58,163 nt of DNA from Kocuria rhizophila (lineage in GTDB: Bacteria; Actinomycetota; Actinomycetes; Actinomycetales; Micrococcaceae). Where the stretch lies: NCBI RefSeq assembly GCF_003667225.1, contig NZ_RCOM01000007.1:1-58163 (forward strand), written 5' to 3'. The notes beneath the pieces were generated by a model, which was given only the letters and a program-made list of their open reading frames with translations, did not search any database and was not told where the DNA came from. A program made the translations under genes and the position numbers. Below, in pieces: positions 8,234 to 43,496 of the stretch (its first letter is position 1; each line of letters begins with the position of its first letter).

Positions 8234-8249
8234 CGTTTCACGTGAAACA
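8234..8249. other. parS: parS centromere site (distal, left)
   Basis: GTTTCACGTGAAAC at 8235-8248 matches the near-universal ParB binding palindrome TGTTTCACGTGAAACA except for C at the first base. It lies in the divergent intergenic region between the PAP2 and ROK genes, about 27 kb from dnaA and well separated from the other five sites. Confidence 0.92.
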
Positions 8250-39885: not shown

Positions 39886-40938
39886 ATGACCACCCCGGAG
39901 CACGACCCGCAGGCCGTGAAACGCGGACACGATTTCGGGTTGCCGCCCGATCCCGCTAATCAGTCCAAAAAGGTTGTCCCGGATCGCGGCAAGCATGTTT
40001 CACGTGAAACAGACGCTCACGCCGGTCTTGCAGCACAGGATGCGGTGGCTGATACCGCTCTGGGGAGGAAACTCGTGGAAGAGAACAAGCGTCGCGCCAA
40101 GCTCAAGAACGTCCACTTGGAGCATCCGAAGAACACTCGCTTCATCACCATCAGCAACCAGAAGGGCGGCGTGGGCAAGACCAGCACGTCCGTGAACCTG
40201 GCGGTGGCGCTGGCCCAGCAGGGTCAGCACGTGCTGGTGGTCGACAACGACCCCCAGGGCAATGCCTCCACTGCCCTCGGCATTCCCCACGGAGCGGATG
40301 CGGACTCGGTGTACGACATCCTCATCGACGAGGTGCCCGTGGCGGACGTGGTCAAGGAGTCTCGCGAGATGGAGAACCTGTGGGTACTCCCCGCCACGAT
40401 CGACCTCGCGGGCGCGGAGATCGAGCTGGTGTCCGTGGTGGCTCGCGAGCAGCGTCTGCAACGAGCTCTCGCGGAGTACGCGGAGTCACGCGAGCAGAAC
40501 GGTTTGCCGCGGCTGGACTACGTGTTCATCGACTGCCCCCCGAGCCTGGGTCTGCTGACCATCAACGCGTTCGTGGCGGCCACGGAGGTGCTGATCCCCA
40601 TCCAGTGCGAGTACTACGCTCTGGAGGGACTGAGCCAGCTCCTCAACAACATCAAGATGATCCAGAAGCACCTCAACCCCCAGCTCACGGTTTCCTCCAT
40701 TCTGCTGACCATGTACGACGGCAGGACCAACCTGGCGTCGCAGGTGGCAGACGAAGTGCGTCAGCACTTCCCGGACGAGGTGATGGAGACGATGATCCCG
40801 CGATCTGTGCGGATCTCGGAAGCACCCAGCTATCAGCAGAGTGTCATCACCTACGACCCGAGCTCCACAGGCGCGCTCTCCTATCTTGAAGCGGCGGCTG
40901 AACTGGCCGCGCGGGAGCCTGGCACTTCCCAGAGATGA
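39886..40938 (+). CDS. parA: Chromosome-partitioning ATPase ParA
   Basis: 350 residues. The deviant Walker A KGGVGKT is at 93-99, with the ParA Walker A' and B (VLVVDNDPQGN, YVFIDCPPSLG). An N-terminal ~85-residue extension precedes the ATPase; within it residues 37-42 (HVSRET) are encoded by a parS site. It moves ParB-parS complexes on the nucleoid and, in actinobacteria, interacts with polar proteins. GAAAGGGA precedes the ATG. Confidence 0.98.
   Translation: MTTPEHDPQAVKRGHDFGLPPDPANQSKKVVPDRGKHVSRETDAHAGLAAQDAVADTALGRKLVEENKRRAKLKNVHLEHPKNTRFITISNQKGGVGKTSTSVNLAVALAQQGQHVLVVDNDPQGNASTALGIPHGADADSVYDILIDEVPVADVVKESREMENLWVLPATIDLAGAEIELVSVVAREQRLQRALAEYAESREQNGLPRLDYVFIDCPPSLGLLTINAFVAATEVLIPIQCEYYALEGLSQLLNNIKMIQKHLNPQLTVSSILLTMYDGRTNLASQVADEVRQHFPDEVMETMIPRSVRISEAPSYQQSVITYDPSSTGALSYLEAAAELAAREPGTSQR
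39996..40011. other. parS: parS site within parA
   Basis: TGTTTCACGTGAAACA, the full 16-bp consensus, lies in the coding sequence of the ParA N-terminal extension (encoding VSRET). Confidence 0.97.
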
Positions 40939-41057
40939 GGCCTCACGTGAGTCGGCGCCACCGACAGGTTCACACGAGGTGGCGGCCGAGCATGCAGGAC
41001 AGCTGAGACCACCGGCCAGGTCGCGGATAATCTCACTGGCGGATGCGGCCCACAATG

Positions 41058-41095
41058 GGATGCCCCGATGTTTCACGTGAAACATTGGGGCATCC
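41058..41095. terminator. parS: parS embedded in a 38-bp palindrome (terminator-like)
   Basis: The 16-bp parS TGTTTCACGTGAAACA (41069-41084) is the exact centre of a 38-bp inverted repeat (GGATGCCCC arm) with a single G-U mismatch. It lies between parA and parB. In RNA it would fold into a 19-bp hairpin, so one sequence could act both as ParB site and as transcription terminator. Confidence 0.88.
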
Positions 41096-41234
41096 TGCTG
41101 TTCGCAGTGGGGGATGTCGAGCGACGCCGTGACTGATTCGGGACGCCCCAGGACATGGCGGGGAATGCTTCCGTCAACGCGTGGGGCGAACCCCACCACG
41201 ACTACGATGGACAGCACATCATCGGTGAAAGGAC

Positions 41235-43352
41235 ATGAACGTGGTCGAACGACGTCGGGGGCTTGGGCGAGGTCTTGGTGCCCTCATCCCCAGTGGAGAA
41301 CCGGAGACTCAACGCAAAGCTGCGGGGAGCCAAAACGAGGCCACCGATGAGCCCAGCAAGCCGGAAAGCGGTCGACGACGTCAGCGAACCGGCTCGGTCG
41401 GCGGCGCAGAGGCATCCAAGACATCCGGGAACTCGAAGAACGCGGCCTCGACCGGCAAGGCGCCCAAAACCGGAACGGCAGGCAAGGGCGCGCCTTCATC
41501 GAAGCGAACGACGACAAGCGACAAGGCGACCTCCCGTTCTTCCGGGACTGACGCGGTTAAGAAGGCCGGGTCTGGAGCCAAGAAGTCCACGACGGCCACG
41601 GCAGTGGAGGCGCGCAGTGCTGCGGGGGCCGAGGAGATGGACAAGAGCACGAGGACGACGGCCGGCAAGGCGTCCTCGGACGGCGCAAAGACCGTGGGGG
41701 CCAGGAAGTCCTCCAATGGTGGTGCCGGTGCCGGCGCCGCAGCCGTCGGCACGGGGAGTGAGCGGAAGAACGCGGTCAGCCCCGAAGGCCCAGGCGCACA
41801 TGCTGATGTCGAGCAGTCCGCTACGCCCAGTGACCGCGCGGCAGAAACCACGCAGGACTCCGCAAGGCATGACAGCTCAGGCCGGAAGGACCACGAACGG
41901 GATAGCGATGTTTCACGTGAAACATCCAGTGCAGCCGCGTCCCGGCCGGGCGGTCGTTCCAAGGACTCGACAGGTCGACCAGCTCAACGCCGTCGCGACA
42001 TGGGGCAGGCACTGCGAAGCACAACGAATGTGAGCCGGCCCGTGGACATGTTCTTCCTGCCGTCCGATCCAGACTCCTTCTCCGATGCCCCGTCCAGCCC
42101 TGTGGGCACGTCGGGAGTGACGCCGGACGGTGACGGGGACACTTGGCGAGCAACGCACCGCGAAGGTGCGTCGAGTGTCTCGGAGACATCCACGCCGACT
42201 TCCGGGCGCGATTCCTCCATGGCGCCCGAGCCCACTACGTCTCCTGCGGACGACCAGAAAAACCGTACCGATGTGGCTTCCAAACAGGACAGTTCCACCG
42301 GGACGAGCGATGTTTCACGTGAAACATCCGCCGCGAAGGGCTCTGACACCTCGGGGTCACAGGGCATTGGAGAAGATGCCACGGTGGAAGGCGCGCGGAC
42401 CCGAGACGAAGACACTTCTCCGCTGGCCGAGAGCTCTCCGGAGACTGCGCCCGATTCAAGCGCAGGTATGCCCACGGATGATGCAGGCACCACCGAAGTG
42501 AACGATAACGGCGGCGACCTGCGAGTCGTTCCGGGTGCTGCCTTCGCCGAGTTGGCGGTGACGGACATCCACCCCAACCGCAAGCAGCCACGGCAGGTGT
42601 TCGACGAGGACGAGCTGGCGGAGCTGGCCTTCTCGGTGAAGGAACTTGGGGTTCTCCAGCCCATCGTCGTGCGTCCCAGCCGCGACGGAGGTCCGGAAGC
42701 CTATGAGCTGGTCATGGGTGAGCGCCGTTGGCGGGCGGTTCAGGCTGCTGGGATGAGCACCATCCCCGCGATCGTCCGGGAAACGGCCGATGACGAATTG
42801 CTCCGGGATGCACTGCTGGAGAACCTGCACCGCGCCCAGCTGAATCCCCTGGAAGAGGCGGCCGCGTACCAGCAGCTGATGGAAGAATTCGGTGCCACTC
42901 AGGAGCAGCTGTCGGAGCGCATCGGGCGGTCCCGCCCGCAGATCTCAAACACGTTGCGACTGCTGCGTCTTCCTGCACTGGTGCAGCGACGTGTGGCGGC
43001 CGGTGTACTGAGTTCCGGTCACGCTCGCGCTCTGTTGGCGCTGCCGGATCCCGCGGAGATGGAACGTCTGGCTCAGCGCATTGTGGCGGAAGGTCTGTCC
43101 GTGCGCGCGACGGAGGAAGCGGTGGCGCTCTCCGACGGCCTCAAGCGCCAGTCCACCAGGCGCAAGGCACCGAGCACGCGACACGACGACCGTCTGGGCT
43201 ACATCGCTGATGCCTTCTCGGACAAGCTCGACACCAGCGTGAAGATTCAGCTGGGCGCTCGTAAGGGCAAGATGACCATCGAGTTCGCGTCGGTGGAGGA
43301 CCTGAACCGCATCATCGACGTTCTGGACCCCAAGCTCGATTCGGAGAGCTGA
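41235..43352 (+). CDS. parB: Chromosome-partitioning protein ParB with giant linker
   Basis: 705 residues, about twice the usual length. [13 protein letters not shown] (7-19) is the N-terminal peptide that stimulates ParA. Residues about 25-430 are low-complexity Ser/Thr/Ala/Lys/Asp-rich, basic first and more acidic later, and probably disordered. The core follows: [15 protein letters not shown] (about 443), the CTP-binding GERRWRA (495-501), the helix-turn-helix (about 552-580, [21 protein letters not shown]) and the C-terminal dimerisation domain. Two parS sites lie within the linker. ParB spreads from parS and loads SMC. The ATG at 41235 follows GAAAGGA. Confidence 0.96.
41909..41924. other. 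parS: parS site 1 within parB linker
   Basis: TGTTTCACGTGAAACA; encodes ParB residues 225-230 (DVSRET). Confidence 0.97.
42311..42326. other. parS: parS site 2 within parB linker
   Basis: TGTTTCACGTGAAACA; encodes ParB residues 359-364 (DVSRET), about 400 bases from the previous site. Confidence 0.97.
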
Positions 43353-43384
43353 GCGCCAGAAGGTTCCTCGAGGCATCCCGAGCA

Positions 43385-43430
43385 CACAGAAGGCCCTGAT
43401 GTTTCACGTGAAACATCGGGGCCTTCTGTG
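43385..43430. terminator. parS: parS embedded in a 46-bp palindrome (bidirectional terminator)
   Basis: The parS TGTTTCACGTGAAACA (43400-43415) is centred in a 46-bp inverted repeat with one G-U mismatch (arms CACAGAAGGCCC / GGGCCTTCTGTG). It lies between the convergent parB and cwlM-like genes, where a bidirectional terminator is expected. Same design as the parA-parB copy but with different outer arms. Confidence 0.9.
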
Positions 43431-43496
43431 TCCTCAAGCTGTAGTGGCCGCGCACGCACCCCGGGCAGAGAGGGGTGCTGAGGCAGGGCACATCGC

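Follow-up and report, generated by a model that had tools for sequence, protein, structure and literature searches.

The parA-parB locus

The window analysed here is a 58,163-nucleotide stretch of the draft genome of Kocuria rhizophila (2.7 Mb in 195 contigs), in which adjoining parA and parB genes are read from the forward strand. With parA next to parB and canonical parS sites nearby, the ParB locus is classed as chromosomal ParABS. Six parS sites with three or fewer mismatches occur in the window, five of them exact, where 0.06 would be expected from shuffled sequence. The 14-bp parS core is found six times in the whole draft genome, every time on this contig. Five of the window's six sites lie within or directly beside parA and parB, and a long linker inside ParB hosts two of the genome's six, both reading DVSRET in the frame of the parB ORF. 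The features are listed in order of position.

8234: parS with one mismatch in the 16-mer, about 31 kb from parA/parB
39886..40938, + strand: parA, stop codon included, adjoining parB
39996-40011, + strand: parS within parA in the VSRET frame; HVSRET runs from residue 37, ahead of the Walker A stretch at 94
41069-41084, + strand: parS between parA and parB, at the centre of a long hairpin (41056..41097)
41235..43352, + strand: parB ORF, stop codon included, 705 aa
41253..41294, + strand: ParA-stimulating-type peptide, residues 7-20; conserved in the alignment, dN 0 in the closest pair (15 codons)
41295..42518, + strand: linker predicted to be disordered, residues 21-428 (pLDDT, composition, fast evolution)
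41909-41924, + strand: parS in the linker, exact 16-bp TGTTTCACGTGAAACA, coding VSRET at residues 226-230
41988..42065, + strand: conserved island, residues 252-277, 26 aa (alignment, dN)
42036..42056, + strand: RPVDMFF core motif, residues 268-274, with residues invariant in the aligned ParBs
42311-42326, + strand: parS in the linker, exact 16-bp TGTTTCACGTGAAACA, coding VSRET at residues 360-364
42543..42830, + strand: ParB_N (CTPase) domain, residues 437-532 (Pfam, above cut-off)
42717-42737, + strand: GERRWRA arginine patch within ParB_N, residues 495-501, invariant in 33 aligned proteins
42837..43127, + strand: HTH_ParB domain, residues 535-631 (Pfam, above cut-off)
43212..43325, + strand: ParB_C dimerisation domain, residues 660-697 (Pfam, above cut-off)
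43400-43415, + strand: parS 3' of parB, at the centre of a terminator-like hairpin with a 22-bp stem (43384..43431)

Residues 7-20 of ParB match by sequence an N-terminal ParA-binding peptide, and binding is predicted on that basis; the ParA-stimulating function of this peptide is established in other ParBs (PMC12462528). Because the peptide ends at residue 20 and conserved sequence restarts at L429, the insert between them comes to about 408 residues. This confirms a preliminary description of the locus, which had reported a ParB with a very long insert of about 405 residues that holds two of its own parS sites in frame as DVSRET. In all comparisons linker length was counted between the GLGRGL motif and the beginning of the core, and by that measure the window ParB has a linker of 424 aa.

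Coding capacity and predicted disorder of the linker

The disorder attributed to the insert in the preliminary description is borne out by two kinds of prediction. In an AlphaFold2 model based on 33 aligned sequences, pLDDT is mostly below 50 over residues 18-430, with block means of 51-54 at residues 251-270, and from residue 431 on the block means are 58-96 and mostly above 70. Charge-hydropathy analysis likewise places the linker in the disordered range (H 0.378 vs a boundary of 0.418). It consists of 16% Ser, 13% Ala, 12% Thr and 11% Gly, and aromatic and large aliphatic residues are scarce.

The linker contains no in-frame stop codon, with 4 and 14 stops in the other two forward frames, and the parB frame is open through the linker in 27/27 Kocuria genomes. 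dN/dS is given for the ten closest Kocuria pairs only, and among these all segments for which dS is finite have a lower dN. The closest pair, L005/L006, serves as the main reference because dS is large or undefined in several of the others. Over its 298 linker codons without gaps, dN/dS is 0.64 in the N-terminal linker (176 codons) and 0.72 in the C-terminal linker (122 codons), next to 0.00 in the ParA peptide (15 codons), 0.00 in the island (26) and 0.06 in the core (272). Across the three codon positions G+C varies little in the linker (0.61/0.66/0.69; 0.73/0.44/0.78 in the core), so that by itself it lends no support to coding and is neutral either way.

An in-frame ATG is present at residue 412, and the linker could in principle be an annotation artefact, left untranslated with ParB starting near that codon. 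This is extremely improbable, as the ParA peptide and the island are conserved in frame upstream of residue 412, stops are lacking in all 27 Kocuria genomes and dN lies below dS; an untranslated linker, or an internal start only, was rejected on open frames, stop counts and dN<dS. The same evidence contradicts two possibilities that had been raised in the preliminary description, namely a start at about residue 420 with no longer product, which does not sit with a peptide and an island at dN 0 in the same frame upstream, and a frameshift, which does not sit with the open frame. The comparisons show a linker that is coding, predicted to be disordered and, the island excepted, fast-evolving, in support of the earlier description of a translated tether with predicted disorder.

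Beyond the island the linker aligns poorly between most species, and in a consensus of the 27 Kocuria linkers VSRET is the only conserved block apart from the island. The sole hints of a composition-level constraint are at the ends of the linker, where 27/27 Kocuria have a net acidic C-terminal segment and 20/27 a net basic N-terminal one. Together with a dN/dS below 1, the acidic C-terminal segment indicates some protein-level constraint, so that the word spacer may understate the role of the linker. It is conceivable, if rather doubtful, that the Ser/Thr/Ala/Gly-rich linker is a working part whose length or composition is selected for condensation, far ParA capture or phosphorylation. Such a role would agree with the charged end segments, with a dN/dS of about 0.65-0.7 and not 1 in the closest pair, and with the recurrence of long linkers in Micrococcales (Kocuria, some relatives, and 9/9 and 5/6 ParBs of the families f11 and f6), but it is opposed by the poor alignability outside the island, by a 1.9-fold variation in length within the genus and by a consensus that holds no further conserved block except VSRET.

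A conserved RPxDxFF island

Counts across relatives refer to 191 ParBs kept from 238 loci, after removal of 33 identical sequences, ten loci that the search patterns did not recognise (L028, L029, L079, L208-L210, L218, L221-L223), three in which the ParA motif was not found (L152, L235, L238) and one with a negative parsed length (L216). The set from outside the order comprises 40 chosen loci of the class, 34 of which were parsed with the motif. Some of the locus sets overlap in species.

Part-way along the insert lies a conserved feature that is absent from the preliminary description. Five residues, R268, P269, D271, F273 and F274, do not vary across 33 aligned ParBs, and an RPxDxFF-type motif occurs in 174/191 ParBs. 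The pattern behind this count requires R, P or A, and D, and admits only hydrophobic residues at the two final positions, which are F in 98% and 99% of cases. The motif is absent in 17/191, many Corynebacterium ParBs among them, and a PVDxFF-like string is found in 5/34 ParBs from outside the order. A conserved stretch precedes RPVDMFF in Kocuria and Rothia.

In relatives with short linkers RPxDxFF follows the ParA peptide at a distance of about 5-20 residues, from which it follows that Kocuria probably gained sequence on both sides of the motif. The island is a candidate binding peptide for a partner, and its conservation points to a further ParB partner in Micrococcales. DivIVA, described as interacting with ParB in C. 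glutamicum (PMC9298525), was considered as a candidate for this partner. A search of the open-licence literature with five spellings of RPxDxFF found none.

parS sites within the linker

Among the 191 non-redundant ParBs every exact in-linker parS (144/144) is read in the frame GTT-TCA-CGT-GAA-AC, giving VSRET, while of the alternative frames one is interrupted by a TGA stop and the other would read FHVK; linker sites with one mismatch are divided 23, 5 and 1 between the VSRET frame and the other two, and these frame counts are not independent events because many of the sites are inherited. The spelling of the peptide is more telling. VSRET occurs 147 times in the linkers and is spelt as an exact parS in 144 of these, where the codon usage of 27 Kocuria parB genes leads to an expectation of 0.0019 (about 0.2%), a value that is if anything too high because the parS codons themselves were counted. 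The sites are dense in the linker, with 144 in 34,362 linker aa vs 4 in 52,185 core aa. In 17 aligned pairs (18 were listed; L110/L112 was left out, L110 being a duplicate) substitutions affect 14/504 nt of shared sites and 4418/8970 nt of the rest of the linker, a contrast that is overstated because the shared class admits only recognisable sites. A further 159 nt of the same pairs, 98 of them substituted, fall in sites that only one partner has; individual linker sites, as far as the aligned pairs go, do come and go.

The spelling of nearly every linker VSRET as an exact parS shows, at the level of codon comparison, that the linker sites are under selection as DNA and not as peptide. Selection on the VSRET peptide itself was rejected on the same count. 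The earlier suggestion that the linker DNA doubles as a host for parS in the frame of DVSRET is thus supported. No report of parS within parB was found in the open-licence literature, and in-gene sites may be described in subscription papers that map actinobacterial parS.

The positions of the sites are only partly kept within the genus. The window site at 41909-41924 lies 42 residues before the RP motif, and the corresponding distance is 37-42 residues in L001-L008. A parS-to-RP-motif spacing of 37-42 aa is found in 17/27 Kocuria and is absent in 10/27, two of which have 51-52 aa and eight another spacing or none.

The linker of L016 contains three near-tandem units of ten residues (PSDVSRETGT, PSDVSRETPT and RSDDSRETGG), each of which holds a parS or near-parS. 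Their arrangement suggests in-frame duplication of a parS-bearing unit.

One lineage has a shifted centromere sequence. In the one-contig genome G010 (locus L026) TTTCACGTGAAA is absent, and eight copies of the asymmetric GTTTCACGTGGAAC are present within 2.2 kb at the parB locus, two of them inside the ParB linker, where they code for VSRGT. The linker sites of G010 thus track, by this comparison, the centromere sequence of the genome and not the peptide. A mixed state is seen in G011 (locus L024), with three copies of TTTCACGTGAAA and three of GTTTCACGTGGAAC.

parS in parA and in hairpins around parB

The N-terminal extension of parA also hosts parS. In 154 relatives for which parA was located, 86/90 exact in-ORF sites are in the VSRET frame and 4/90 in the FHVK frame, which shows that the FHVK frame is not impossible.

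The two sites that flank parB lie in strong predicted RNA structures, with fold z values of -5.9 for the intergenic and -8.0 for the 3' site, compared with -1.6 and -1.0 at the two sites in the linker. Complementary flanking pairs number 11/14 in the hairpin at 41056..41097 and 13/14 in that at 43384..43431. Across relatives, of the exact parS that lie no more than 200 bp downstream of parB, 45/88 have at least 11/14 flanking pairs complementary, a level reached by 0/144 sites in linkers, 6/261 upstream and 1/31 farther downstream. The sites centred in such long, covarying inverted repeats include those of L001-L008, L011, L012, L014, L016, L018, L020 and others, and the remaining 43/88 near-downstream sites, several Kocuria among them, fall below that pairing level. 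When near and far downstream sites are pooled (119 = 88 + 31), 52 cases have at least 10/14 pairs; all 52 arms differ, and several pair types occur at every position. Among the first 11 pairs, mismatches of the G-U type on the sense strand number 15, those of the A-C type 4 and others 8 (15 vs 4, p 0.02). An RNA hairpin, possibly a terminator, built round parS would fit these patterns better than a palindrome acting only as DNA. A clear U run is absent in the 12 downstream flanks inspected, which counts against an intrinsic terminator. Nothing on parS associated with terminators or hairpins was found in the open-licence literature.

The crowding of five of the six window sites inside or immediately next to parA and parB raises the question of whether the in-gene sites are mainly regulatory, such that ParB clamps inside parB would hinder its own transcription and serve autoregulation rather than segregation. 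A precedent exists in P. aeruginosa, where promoters adjacent to parS3 and parS4 are described as repressed at raised ParB (PMC5521831). Such a role is nevertheless unlikely to be the main one, since one parS lies far off at 8234 and C. glutamicum is described as clustering ten parS near oriC of which nine are intergenic (PMC7083940), so that parS near oriC need no autoregulatory role.

Linker length and parS hosting

Comparison of ParBs across related genera shows that long linkers are Kocuria-wide, as all 27/27 linkers measure 224-424 aa (median 318) and that of the window is the longest among the 191 non-redundant ParBs, followed by linkers of 423 and 420 aa. Every one of the 27 Kocuria linkers holds 2-5 sites (exact or one mismatch), with at least one exact site in 25/27. 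In 54 other Micrococcaceae the median linker is 160.5 aa and at least one site with no more than one mismatch is present in 32/54. Micrococcales outside the family have a median of 155 aa in 51 parsed ParBs and reach 423 aa, the order-wide medians being biased upward because long open frames were a criterion in choosing some of the loci and 30 loci are the best-scoring ones. For members of the class from other orders the median is 53.5 aa (34 parsed ParBs; range 16-162), and exact in-linker parS occur in 4/34. The statement in the preliminary description that a normal ParB linker has a few tens of residues therefore holds outside the order and fails within Micrococcales. In L239 and in L240 (8.9 and 9.2 Mb; same class) the parB linker carries a single parS, read as VSRET.

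Long linkers without parS are found in two other families of Micrococcales, most of whose ParBs were fetched for their long open frames. In f11 all nine fetched ParBs (L199-L204, L217, L219, L220) have linkers of 243-423 aa, and in f6 five of six (L205-L207, L224, L225) have linkers of 309-413 aa, in each case with no in-linker parS. A parS-like site with no more than one mismatch is absent from the whole 3.3-4.1 kb stretches of all nine f11 loci, so that the parS of f11 may differ or sit elsewhere. With these 14 ParBs, the view that the long linker is special to the window ParB is not supported. Conversely, the sixth f6 ParB, L226, holds two parS in a linker of 141 aa, and in L139 and L144 two sites are accommodated in 54 aa.

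Raw Spearman correlations between linker length and in-linker parS count are 0.45 in 191 ParBs and 0.71 in 81 Micrococcaceae. Taken with the near-tandem units of L016 that bear parS or near-parS, these values could be read to mean that the linker grew in order to host parS, a centromere-driven expansion of the protein. That is highly improbable, since phylogenetic contrasts give r 0.11 and p 0.11 (log length 0.09, p 0.21) with 36 signs for and 33 against, linkers of 243-423 aa exist without in-linker parS, and two sites fit in 141 or 54 aa; parS-driven growth was rejected on the contrasts, the parS-free long linkers and the parS-bearing short ones. Linker length and parS hosting are separable on these comparisons, and neither the 14 parS-free linkers nor the contrasts support a tie between them.

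Proposed organisation

The reading that we consider probable is that of a standard chromosomal ParABS system in which the ParA peptide would be carried on a very long, weakly constrained and disordered tether, with RPxDxFF part-way along it, and in which the parS sites in the linker are selected as DNA. The linker DNA may be permissive ground where ParB-loading sites persist, which would make parB part of its own centromere. The linker protein would act as a flexible spacer carrying two binding peptides that work independently, one for ParA at the tip and one for a partner at RPxDxFF.

Ideal-chain arithmetic gives an effective concentration of the two ParA peptides of a dimer that falls from about 2 mM with arms of 35 aa to about 30-40 µM with arms of 424 aa, and an rms reach that rises to 16-19 nm for the 424-residue arms. 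From the lower effective concentration and the longer reach, longer ParA capture and a looser coupling to the clamp state would be expected. The reference case is M. xanthus, where clamp closure is described as juxtaposing two short N-terminal tails and thereby strongly raising ParA stimulation (PMC12462528).

More tentatively, the Kocuria centromere may be woven into parA and parB, with parS sites placed in disordered codons and at the centres of terminator-like hairpins. Clamps would then load inside the transcription unit of ParB and might couple occupancy to ParB supply, and RPxDxFF would serve Micrococcales ParB as a second motif for binding a partner, on a long tether independent of that of the ParA peptide.

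The linker is a clear case of one DNA stretch that is selected as a centromere while its protein product is only weakly constrained. The natural series of ParBs with linkers from 16 to 424 residues would offer a direct test of tail length, clamp gating and ParA capture.

Comparison with known systems

The closest known relatives are the chromosomal ParB/Spo0J proteins of M. xanthus, C. glutamicum and S. coelicolor, which share with Kocuria ParB the ParA peptide, the ParB_N domain with its arginine patch, the HTH and the C-terminal dimer domain, as well as a neighbouring parA and canonical parS. A search of the open-licence literature on ParB linkers and disorder was without result, as was a search of plasmid proteins with a composite query, in which no record covered 80% of the query. 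We know of no sites of its own within the linker of KorB, the ParB of plasmid RK2. KorB is like Kocuria ParB in belonging to the ParB family and in having disordered regions (PMC5577506), but it is a plasmid protein.

What sets Kocuria ParB apart from the M. xanthus protein is the length of the unstructured region, described as residues 1-35 in the latter (PMC12462528) vs about 408 residues in Kocuria. A parS site inside a coding sequence has been described in C. glutamicum, where parS1 lies within trpCF (PMC7083940), and Kocuria differs from it in having 2-5 sites per linker, genus-wide and within the very gene that encodes the binding protein. The ParBs of f11 and f6 resemble those of Kocuria in their 243-423 aa linkers and in an RPVD- or RPAD-type FF motif, and differ in that none of the 14 has in-linker parS. 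Overall, the Kocuria locus is a genus-wide variant of a known system and not a new kind of system.
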